Shown here one piece after another: positions 1 through 3,083 of a stretch of 64,000 bases of DNA (its first letter is position 1; every line of letters begins with the position of its first letter). The notes beneath the pieces were generated by a model. It saw nothing but the letters and a program-made list of their open reading frames with translations, was not told where the DNA came from and did not search any database. This stretch comes from Caballeronia concitans (GTDB taxonomy: Bacteria; Pseudomonadota; Gammaproteobacteria; Burkholderiales; Burkholderiaceae). The position numbers and the translations under genes are program-made. The stretch covers positions 310,001 through 374,000 of the forward strand of contig NZ_FCNV02000003.1 in assembly GCF_001544615.1 (NCBI RefSeq), given 5' to 3'.

Positions 1-250
1 CCGATGCGTTCAGCTTGCCGATCTGCACCGGACTGATGTCGAAGTGCGGCGAGACGCCCGCGCCGACATAGCCGATGTTGCTGAGCGCGGTGACATCGAC
101 CTTCTGAACCTGCGTGAGGTTCTGAAGGATGCCGACGTTGACTTCCACGTTGGCATACGGTCCGTAGCCTTGCCCGCCGGAGACGGCGGACATCGCGCGA
201 CGGTCGAGGTCCTTGCTGTGGGACAGGTCCCGGACGATGATGGACGACAT
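1..250 (-). CDS. Small exported peptide with double-glycine leader, copy A (3' end beyond window)
   Basis: The start is ATG at 250, with GAGGAG about 7 nt upstream. The 83 visible residues begin with a 26-residue leader ending LDRRAMSAVSGG. Hydrophobic residues sit at -4 (Val), -7 (Met) and -12 (Leu) from the Gly-Gly, which is the classic pattern of double-glycine leaders cut by C39-type peptidase-transporters. The presumed mature part starts QGYGPYANVEVNVG and is polar and Gly/Asn/Val-rich, with no Cys in the visible part. It lies 36 nt downstream of its paralogue (287-571), so the two probably form an operon. Core function is not recognised: bacteriocin, RiPP precursor or other secreted peptide are all possible. 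No processing enzyme or C39 transporter lies in this window. Coding is clear; the export role is inferred. Confidence 0.75.
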   Translation of the reverse strand, partial: MSSIIVRDLSHSKDLDRRAMSAVSGGQGYGPYANVEVNVGILQNLTQVQKVDVTALSNIGYVGAGVSPHFDISPVQIGKLNAS

Positions 251-286
251 GGTGGTGCTCCTCGCGTAGCGAATCGTTTTTGCGGT

Positions 287-571
287 TCAGGCCCAGGCCA
301 GCCCGCCGCCGATGTTGATGTTGCTCGTGTTGCGCGCCGTCTGAACCGGCTTGACCTTCGAGTCGATGTCGTCCGCGAACGCGACATTCGCGCCGTTCTC
401 GTTGAACGTCTTCTGATCCTGCTGGATCATCTGTTGCGTGTTGAACGAGAGCGAGACCTTCGACATATCGAAGCCCGGCACGAAATAGCTCGAGCCGCCA
501 CGCACGGCCGACATCGCGCGGCGATCGAGTTCTTCGGTGACGGGCAGGTCCTTGATGGTCAGCGTCTTCAT
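287..571 (-). CDS. Small exported peptide with double-glycine leader, copy B
   Basis: This encodes 94 residues. I chose ATG at 571 because AAGGAGAA sits 6 nt upstream; a longer in-frame extension exists but has no such site. Residues 1-26 form a leader ending ELDRRAMSAVRGG, with Val at -4, Met at -7 and Leu at -12 before the Gly-Gly. It has the same length as the leader of the downstream gene and shares its LDRRAMSAVxGG block. The remaining 68 residues differ from copy A: they contain Gln/Asn-rich stretches (FNTQQMIQQDQ), a central acidic patch and a C-terminal GGGLAWA, with no Cys. Conserved leader with diverged core is typical of peptide families sharing one exporter. I do not recognise the core and no maturation enzyme is next to it. 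Confidence 0.8.
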   Translation of the reverse strand: MKTLTIKDLPVTEELDRRAMSAVRGGSSYFVPGFDMSKVSLSFNTQQMIQQDQKTFNENGANVAFADDIDSKVKPVQTARNTSNINIGGGLAWA

Positions 572-645
572 TGCGGTTCTCCTTGAGTGCGCATCGCGCG
601 TTCGGTGGTGGTGTCGAGCAACTTGTCTGCTCGGGCCAGTTAAAC

Positions 646-660
646 GCATGAGGTATGCCA
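646..660 (-). promoter_or_regulatory. Possible sigma-54-like -24/-12 element upstream of the GG-leader genes
   Basis: On the minus strand this reads TGGCATACCTCATGC. It keeps the GG and GC dinucleotides 10 nt apart as in a -24/-12 promoter, but the -12 half is a weak match. It lies about 75 nt upstream of the ATG at 571. The 370-nt divergent gap 572-941 holds no gene, and I see no convincing sigma-70 promoter for the minus-strand operon. Confidence 0.2.
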
Positions 661-941
661 AGCGCGCGTCTGAACAAACGAAACCGCTTCCGAGCCTTGT
701 TTCATGGGCTTTTCTGATCGGGAGCGCGTTCAGTTTCATCATCTCGAGTCGATCGGGATGATGCCGCCGGACCAACAGCCCACGCGATCTGTCGGTATCC
801 GAACGACATGTGCGCGATGCCGCTCATCATCGAAAACGCCATTTGCCTAAGCCGCACGCGAAGGCTAGTATCGAACGAGCACCGGTTGTTTGGTACGACA
901 AGTGAATTGTCGGTCGATTGGAGCCGCATCGAGTCGCACAG

Positions 942-3083
942 ATGACTAGCTTCCGAGAAGCGCTTCGTCAATATCGGGGCGATGTCGGGTCGCGCGACGC
1001 GTTCTTTGCAGGGGTCGATGGCGCACTGGCCGCCGATCGCACGCCGGGCGCGCGGCTCCTCGACATCCTCGACGAGGAAAACGCGGCAAGGCCCTTGCCG
1101 CCCGATATCTATTCCGCCATTCGCCGGCGCATCGAGCATACGGCGCGCATGCGCTCGGAAACGAACCCCGGCACCACGTTTCATCCGGACCGCGATGAAA
1201 CGCGTCTGCACATGACGCCCGCCGCACCGCCGCCTTTGCCGCCGCGCGCCTTGAGCAGCGCGAGCGTTGGCCCGGACTCAACGGGCGCGACCGGCGCGAC
1301 CGGCGCTACCTCGGGCCAGGCGACGCAAGTGCTTCCCGAAGTGGACCAGATCAAGGGCGTGGGCGATACGCTGAACAATCGCTTCGTGCTCGAAGAATGT
1401 CTCGGCATCGGCGGGATGGGGACCGTCTACAAGGCGCTCGATCTGCGCAAGCTGGAGGCGTCGGACCGGCGCCCGTATGTGGCGATCAAGGTGCTGAACC
1501 TGCAGTTTCGCGGCAATCCGAAGTCGCTGATCGCGCTGCAACGCGAGGCGCGCAAGGCGCAGCAGCTCGCGCATCGCAATATCGTCACGGTGTACGACTT
1601 CGATCGCGACGGGGCCATTGTCTATCTGACGATGGAGTATCTGTCCGGTCAGCCATTGTCCCGGATACTTCGGACACCGAACTTCAAGGGAATGGCGTTT
1701 CCCGAAGTGTTTCGCATCTTCAAGGGCATGGCGACGGCGCTCGCGTATGCGCACGAGCGCGGCTTCGTGCATTGCGACTTCAAGCCTGCCAACGTGTTCG
1801 TCACGGATGCATCGGAAGTGAAGGTCATCGACTTCGGCATCGCGCGCGTGATTCAGCGTCCCGAAGAGGAAACCGAAGCCACCGTGTTCGATCCGGGCAG
1901 CCTGGGCGCGCTGACGCCCGCTTATGCCAGCCCGGAGATGCTCGAACATCGCGAGCCCGATCCGCGCGACGATATCTACGCGCTTGGCTGCATCACGTAC
2001 GAGCTTCTGACCGGCAAGCATCCGTTCGATCGCGTGCCCGCGTTGCAGGCGAAGAGCGCGGGCATGAAGCCGCTGCGTCCGGAGAATCTCGGCAACAAGC
2101 AATGGAAGGCGCTGAAAGCGGCGCTTGCATTCGAACGCGAAGACAGGACGCCGACCGTCGCGCAGTTTCTCGATGAGATCAGCGAGGAGCGGCCGGCTGC
2201 ATCGGCGCAAGCGAGGGCGAAGCGCACGGGCGTGCCGAAGCTCGCTATCGGCGCGCTGGTGCTCGCGGTGATCGCGGGCGCGGGCTATGTGTTCGTCGCG
2301 CATCAGAAGAGCCGGGCGCCGACGTCCACCGCGACTTCGACCGCTACCGCAACGACTCCGGCACCCACAGCGCCCATCGCGATGCCCACGCCCGCCGCGC
2401 CCGCGCCGACGCTCACGATGGCCGCCGTCACGCCCGTGCTCGCGAGCGTGCCGTGCTCGGCGCTGGTCGCGTCGGTGCACGATCAGACCGTGGATGTGCA
2501 AGGCTTCGTATCCGAGAAATACGGCCTCGCGCGACTGAAGGAAACGCTCGGGCGCGTGCCCGGCGTGCGCACGACGAACTTCGGCGTGCAGCCCGTCAGC
2601 GACGACAAATGCGACGTGCTCAAGGTGCTCGGTCCGTACTGGACGGCGAACCGGCAGGCGGGGCATCCTGCGTCGGTGCATACGCGATCGAACCAGACGC
2701 GTCTCACGGAAGGCGATCCGCTGATCGTCGAACTGATGACGCCCGCGTTCGATTCGTACGTCAACGTCGATTACTTCATGCTCGACGGCAGCGCCGTGCA
2801 TCTGCTGCCGAACGAACGTTCGCGCGACAACCAGGCGCCGCCGAGCTACACGGCGACCATCGGCACCATGGGCGACTGGGTCGTCGGCAAGCCGTTCGGC
2901 GCGGAGATGATCGTGCTGATGGTGACGCCCGCGCCGCTCTTCGACGCGCTGCGCCCGGACAGCGAAGCGAAGGCCGACTATCTACGCGCGGTGGACAAAC
3001 GCCTCGCCGCGCTCGCGGCCCGATATGGACGTGAGCGCGTGCTCGTCGACATCTTTCAGATCACGACGCAGGCGAAGAAATAG
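942..3083 (+). CDS. Membrane-anchored Ser/Thr protein kinase with C-terminal DUF4384-like domain
   Basis: This encodes 713 residues from ATG 942; an in-frame TTG at 918 is an alternative and neither has a strong ribosome site. The kinase domain (about 150-410) has a Gly-loop (GIGGMGTVY), VAIK lysine near 183, catalytic loop HCDFKPAN (Asp near 279; HCD replaces HRD) and DFG near 297. A Pro/Ala/Thr-rich linker surrounds one membrane segment near 434-455, so the kinase is cytoplasmic and the C-terminus probably periplasmic. The C-terminal part has a BON-like stretch, then a DUF4384-like domain (LTEGDPLIVELMTPAFDSYVNVDYF and HLLPNE motifs). Such hybrids in proteobacteria are thought to sense envelope state, sometimes near type VI secretion genes; none is visible here. 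Substrate unknown. It is divergent from the GG-leader operon. Confidence 0.88.
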   Translation: MTSFREALRQYRGDVGSRDAFFAGVDGALAADRTPGARLLDILDEENAARPLPPDIYSAIRRRIEHTARMRSETNPGTTFHPDRDETRLHMTPAAPPPLPPRALSSASVGPDSTGATGATGATSGQATQVLPEVDQIKGVGDTLNNRFVLEECLGIGGMGTVYKALDLRKLEASDRRPYVAIKVLNLQFRGNPKSLIALQREARKAQQLAHRNIVTVYDFDRDGAIVYLTMEYLSGQPLSRILRTPNFKGMAFPEVFRIFKGMATALAYAHERGFVHCDFKPANVFVTDASEVKVIDFGIARVIQRPEEETEATVFDPGSLGALTPAYASPEMLEHREPDPRDDIYALGCITYELLTGKHPFDRVPALQAKSAGMKPLRPENLGNKQWKALKAALAFEREDRTPTVAQFLDEISEERPAASAQARAKRTGVPKLAIGALVLAVIAGAGYVFVAHQKSRAPTSTATSTATATTPAPTAPIAMPTPAAPAPTLTMAAVTPVLASVPCSALVASVHDQTVDVQGFVSEKYGLARLKETLGRVPGVRTTNFGVQPVSDDKCDVLKVLGPYWTANRQAGHPASVHTRSNQTRLTEGDPLIVELMTPAFDSYVNVDYFMLDGSAVHLLPNERSRDNQAPPSYTATIGTMGDWVVGKPFGAEMIVLMVTPAPLFDALRPDSEAKADYLRAVDKRLAALAARYGRERVLVDIFQITTQAKK

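Follow-up and report, generated by a model that had tools for sequence, protein, structure and literature searches.

Several small double-glycine proteins accompany the C39 exporter PteB in Synechococcus elongatus; of these proteins, EbfG1-4, EbfG1-3 form amyloid, and the EbfG set is needed for biofilm according to the available sections of two reports (PMC4997328, PMC9981879). Another amyloid system includes a C39 protease, FapD, but this protein is periplasmic and its target is reported as unclear (PMC5557850). HetC of Nostoc, described as having no known substrate, binds ppGpp in vitro (PMC10986499). This binding supports nucleotide-type regulation of such exporters. Type VI secretion has a threonine phosphorylation pathway, made up of a kinase, a phosphatase and an FHA protein. 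An account of this pathway is given, in the sections drawn on here, in PMC5995506.

Double-glycine precursors and their promoter motif

The window analysed here, a 64-kb stretch of Caballeronia concitans DNA (bases 310001-374000 of contig 14), begins with two tandem minus-strand genes whose matching 26-residue double-glycine leaders had been pointed out in the initial annotation, a description that our analysis bore out. pepA (287..571, minus strand) encodes a class A precursor of 94 aa, with a leader of 26 aa and a core of 68 aa; its N-terminus reads MKTLTIKDLPVTEELDRRAMSAVRGG, and the predicted cleavage site after Gly-Gly is followed by SSYF. pepB (1..250, minus strand; L003:13990-14250) encodes a class B precursor of 86 aa, and its 3' end falls 11 bases outside the window's left edge. 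As had been suspected, the array extends past the left edge, by one more copy: pepC (L003:13534-13749), encoding a class C precursor of 71 aa, lies left of pepB outside the window. The leaders of pepA and pepB are 26 residues each and carry Leu at -12, Met at -7, Val at -4 and a terminal Gly-Gly, and so show the hydrophobic -4, -7 and -12 positions and the GG end of C39 (PCAT) exporter substrates. Among window ORFs of 35-330 aa the pattern is found in these two only, and a looser DNA leader pattern allowing two mismatches gave, the two exact sites aside, 7 sites against 5.2 expected, which is chance level.

The genome holds six leader-family genes at E <= 10, three of which, pepD, pepE and pepF, lie about 100-110 kb to the right of the window, beside an exporter gene. 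pepD (L004:16454-16738), which belongs to the exporter locus, is 70% identical to pepA along its whole length, core included. Between these two genes (window 287-571 and L004:16454-16738) silent changes were counted at 4 of about 20 sites in the leader and at 24 of 43 in the core (Fisher 0.013, on rounded counts); fewer silent changes in the leader than in the core hint at gene conversion of the leader DNA. One pepE leader pair differs by 10 replacement changes and 1 silent change.

A sigma-54 type -24/-12 element, TTGGCATACCTCATGCG, is located at 645..661 (minus strand), 90 bases upstream of the pepA start codon. It scores 12.5 of 15.5, under our cut-off of 13, and the elements of eight orthologous cassettes score 14.0-14.5 at positions -84 to -92. 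Such elements stand at the heads of peptide runs, mostly 60-100 bases upstream: a score of at least 13 was obtained for 125 of 130 run-heading peptides, heads which are not independent since the loci are related, versus 1 of 40 internal peptides and 49 of 2600 dinucleotide shuffles. The count covered peptides with at least 150 bases upstream, outside L110 and L140, whose matches are unlike leader peptides. Together with the NtrC-type activator encoded in the locus, the run-head elements make sigma-54 control of the peptide runs the natural reading of the sequences. In the main text of the P. phymatum RpoN transcriptome paper, terms for this locus matched only in the reference list.

The exporter locus, the kinase and their arrangement in relatives

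The initial annotation had thought that the exporter might lie in the left flank and had counted the absence of any C39 transporter from the genome as evidence against secretion. The left flank did not bear out the first possibility: beyond pepC it carries an Lhr helicase gene in the opposite orientation, so that no exporter adjoins the cassette on this side. Nor did the second case arise: a PF03412 search of the 6.17 Mb genome found two C39 proteins, one of them a C39-ABC exporter (L004:6762-9899) about 101 kb to the right of the window cassette on the same contig. Its chain of 1045 aa combines two cNMP-type stretches (PF00027), a C39 domain (PF03412), an ABC membrane domain (PF00664) and an ATPase (PF00005), and thereby has the HetC-like make-up of cNMP-type domain, C39 and ABC exporter in one protein. 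By eye, the C39 domain keeps the Cys, His and Asp motifs, as expected of a cognate exporter of double-glycine substrates. Caballeronia grimmiae R27 has the closest named exporter that we found (96%). Also encoded in the locus are HlyD, an OprM-type channel, a PP2C phosphatase, a PpiC-type isomerase devoid of a hydrophobic segment, a sigma-54 activator and an FHA protein, which has a hydrophobic segment besides its two FHA domains. The second C39 ABC exporter (L005:6119-10793) is accompanied by HlyD and a TolC-like reading frame; it is the less likely partner, and its 16 kb contain no leader-pattern ORF.

To the right of pepA the window encodes a membrane Ser/Thr protein kinase with a C-terminal DUF4384 (918..3083, plus strand; TTG start as listed, in-frame ATG at 942). 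The protein has a hydrophobic segment, and its DUF4384 part is probably periplasmic. The characteristic motifs of kinase, phosphatase and FHA proteins are present, except that the second FHA domain lacks GR. Elsewhere in the genome, L007:2701-4569 (contig 14, about 423-425 kb) encodes a caspase (C14) fused to an FGE-sulfatase domain behind an apparent Sec signal, as judged by eye.

Comparison with relatives shows how these pieces are arranged elsewhere. In three Caballeronia loci (L044/L045, which are two overlapping stretches, L047 and L048) the kinase and the A-B-C cassette are joined in a single block to the exporter operon, a pair of DUF4399 genes and the gene of the caspase-FGE protein, and in a further Caballeronia locus (L053) a class C peptide alone adjoins the kinase. 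Genomes from two genera of the family besides Caballeronia (G290 and G193; L143/L144 and L145/L146) have the whole locus, in the order F, PP2C, activator, C39-ABC, isomerase, HlyD, FHA, OprM, A, two DUF4399, caspase, kinase, A, B, C. The cassette is near the exporter, as class II microcin genes are expected to be, in relatives and 101 kb away from it in our genome. In three more stretches (L050, L052 and L058, the last with class C only) the cassette is flanked by the kinase and Lhr, and the exporter does not adjoin it; in the unsplit L045, too, Lhr comes after the cassette. The window therefore most likely holds the detached end of a locus that was severed between caspase and kinase. In the 28 genomes with both genes, the kinase and the exporter are less than 20 kb apart in 10 and more than 100 kb apart on the same contig in 5, one of which is ours; the other 13 have them on different contigs, in some cases perhaps through assembly breaks.

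We also compared the occurrence of these genes. In a set of 61 genomes to which our own belongs, a leader-family match (E <= 0.01) is present in 31, the exporter (E <= 1e-200) in 28 and the kinase (E <= 1e-100) in the same 28. Within the genus (n=37), 28 genomes have both exporter and kinase and 9 have neither (Fisher 8e-9, a value that overstates independence, as the species are related and several of the 9 genomes are small or incomplete); the 28 are not independent because all belong to one genus. The three genomes with peptides but without the exporter hold 1, 2 and 1 leader-family matches. The best match in one of them (L041:239-484, G015) reads as a class F-like precursor interrupted by stops, and in another (L060:4994-6232, G012) a pepC-like ORF lies beside a kinase gene in pieces; such remnants would fit decay after exporter loss. 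A sample of 300 genomes from the order, with our own among them, has 3 genomes with peptides (E <= 1e-5), and these 3 are also the ones with the exporter. Among the best 80 of 315 named exporter loci, some of which end at contig ends, the activator was matched in 80, the isomerase in 79, PP2C in 73, HlyD and FHA in 70 each, OprM in 69, DUF4399 in 64 and a caspase-FGE relative in 63. The kinase was matched in 2 of these 80, since the 10 kb flanks seldom reach its gene. The same 80 loci contain 172 leader-pattern ORFs, found in 73 of them, and when their 1.77 Mb was read backwards there were none; of the 7 loci in which no leader-pattern ORF was found, 2 are incomplete. We find the locus in Caballeronia, Paraburkholderia, Cupriavidus and relatives farther removed; many of these are bacteria of soil or plants.

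Other double-glycine peptides were seen in the course of this comparison. One genome (G022) carries ten in tandem (L062:5339-9783; M-L-K-[IV]-[ED]-N-[IL]-AV...GAIVGG), a further substrate class whose cores have FASPxxxVAPVTQVDA-like stretches in common with exporter-side peptides of L117. Another genome (G031) has a lone double-glycine ORF of 61 aa (L057:6404-6589) with no exporter gene in the 13 kb covered, and several further genomes of the genus give short matches confined to the leader.

Core sequences and possible functions

Beyond the Gly-Gly the cores had been described as unrelated and completely diverged. This stands for inspection by eye and for class C, whose core profile (13 rows) matches none of the other classes compared (A, B and F); it does not stand for classes A, B and F, which have a common motif around QxxxQxQ and are related by core-only profiles. 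The comparison of A with B gave E = 1e-4 and an HH probability of 58, A with F E = 3e-6 and 88, and B with F E = 9e-7 and 91, and in each case 0 of 40 column shuffles was as good; the class A profile had 83 rows after length and core-type filters and that of class B 11, and similar composition may raise such scores, the column shuffles keeping composition. Asn and Gln together make up 17-21% of our genome's own A, B, D, E and F cores and 11% of C; in 28 long window ORFs the mean is 6.1% and the maximum 9.0%. Core dN/dS was 0.07-0.31 in seven orthologue pairs, 0.60 for pepB versus L050 and 0.39 for the paralogues pepA and pepD. The same core classes are found across genera. We scanned classes A and F against Pfam and NCBIfam, class B against Pfam and the window's partial pepB against both. 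In agreement with the initial annotation, no named family clearly covers classes A and F (Pfam, NCBIfam) or B (Pfam). The best weak match is TIGR04149 (E 3.4e-4, 6 of 29 class A members); weak matches to double-glycine families also include PF10439, NF038034, ComC and carnobacteriocin B2, and the others are to unrelated families. Structure models of classes A and F reached pLDDT 54 and 39, too weak for use.

Our main reading takes up the leaders, the locus with its synteny and co-occurrence, the promoter motif, the related cores and the catalytic motifs, all of them read directly from sequence. pepA, pepB and pepC would be precursors of small secreted proteins. The C39 peptidase domain of the exporter would recognise their 26-residue leaders and cut after Gly-Gly, the cores then passing through HlyD and the OprM-type channel. 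The presence of this exporter in the same genome, and in the same locus in relatives, lends weight to the proposal of the initial annotation that a C39 exporter handles secreted double-glycine peptides, and we give secretion by this dedicated exporter, with cleavage and export as predicted steps, a probability of about 0.8. The locus would be a single one, split here into the cassette and kinase in the window and the exporter about 101 kb away, and the enhancer-binding protein encoded in the locus itself would activate a sigma-54 promoter at the start of each peptide run. The kinase, the PP2C phosphatase and the double-FHA inner-membrane protein may form a reversible threonine phosphorylation switch on the exporter, a gating for which we see about even chances; the kinase may instead simply travel with the exporter. 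The two nucleotide-type domains of the exporter could serve as a second input. Finally, the mature proteins (45-70 aa, without Cys here) might build or coat the cell surface or a biofilm matrix, a role that we propose tentatively, by analogy with EbfG, at somewhat less than even odds. The fullest version, a phospho- and nucleotide-gated, sigma-54-controlled type I system of Burkholderiales dedicated to an Asn/Gln-rich multi-subunit surface amyloid or coat, is speculative and on balance unlikely.

Other fates of the exported proteins have to be weighed against a surface or matrix role. The cassette could produce a secreted signal, autocrine or host-directed; the kinase or the sigma-54 activator would then belong to a response loop. 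A kinase with a probably periplasmic DUF4384 part, a phosphatase, an FHA protein and an activator in one locus would suit such a loop, and HetC, a similar cNMP-C39-ABC protein, is described as serving cell differentiation (PMC10986499); however, cores of 45-70 aa, with several classes side by side, are bigger than one would expect of a signal, and no receptor was identified in our analysis, so that we hold this reading to be unlikely, though deserving of attention. Leader type, size and export through C39, HlyD and OprM would equally suit class II microcin-like bacteriocins that kill relatives, with immunity encoded elsewhere or by the DUF4399 proteins near the exporter. Weak matches to PF10439 (2 of 11 class B, E 0.045), NF038034 (8 of 16 class F, E 0.012) and carnobacteriocin B2 (E 0.088) point the same way, but they may reflect the leader alone. 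No immunity gene was recognised in or beside the cassette, where the peptides lie between the Lhr helicase and the kinase, and the core classes are constant across genera. Furthermore, the six own cores contain 4-12% Gly versus 12-26% in class II microcins (pepB at the lower bound), and the leader has 26 aa versus 15-18 aa there, according to the available part of PMC11494933. We consider a bacteriocin rather improbable.

The modification of the peptides as RiPP precursors before export is less probable still, and to us very unlikely. A leader with a diverged core is typical of such precursors, TIGR04149 is itself an rSAM-modified GG RiPP family, the isomerase is related to the peptide maturation family TIGR04500 (95 bits, cut-off 180), and the kinase region matches lanthionine synthetase models of class IV (90 of 650 bits) and class III (52 of 575), far below the cut-offs. 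Pfam scans of the locus proteins, on the other hand, found no LanC, YcaO, rSAM or ATP-grasp domain, and the modifying enzyme that the initial annotation had thought possible was not recognised; the sole candidate is the FGE domain of the caspase protein, behind its apparent Sec signal. The six own cores are without Cys, yet 12 of 109 class A-type cores elsewhere contain it. We consider the bacteriocin or RiPP suggestion of the initial annotation less probable than a surface or matrix role, because no immunity gene was recognised, Gly is low, Asn and Gln are high and the cores are kept between orthologues.

Comparison with known systems

In a search of full-text literature (title and start of abstract, with subscription journals mostly outside) we recognised no paper describing this locus among the matches listed. 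An early screen by Dirix and colleagues (2004) may list members. If the proposed reading is right, the locus would provide a candidate substrate set for multidomain cNMP-C39-ABC exporters, threonine phosphorylation control as known for type VI secretion would extend to type I secretion, and a secreted multi-protein matrix would bear on surface and host colonisation by these bacteria.

As in the type VI pathway, a Ser/Thr kinase, a phosphatase and an FHA protein are tied to a secretion machine, but the machine here is a type I ABC exporter. With class II microcins and their PCAT exporters, as described in the available part of PMC11494933, the locus has in common the double-glycine leader, the hydrophobic residues at -4, -7 and -12 and the C39 ABC exporter, whereas it differs in the longer leader, the lower Gly content, the Asn/Gln-rich cores and the lack of a recognised immunity gene. 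The exporter resembles HetC in joining a cNMP-type N-terminal domain, C39 and an ABC exporter in one chain (PMC10986499); two cNMP-type stretches were matched here whereas one such domain is described for HetC in the sections available, and candidate substrates are clear in our case. EbfG1-4 with PteB provide the best analogy for function. Likened by description, with no homology claimed, both systems combine a C39 exporter with a series of small double-glycine proteins, and ours differs in its arrangement of kinase, PP2C, FHA and sigma-54 elements, none of which is mentioned for EbfG in the available sections of those reports.
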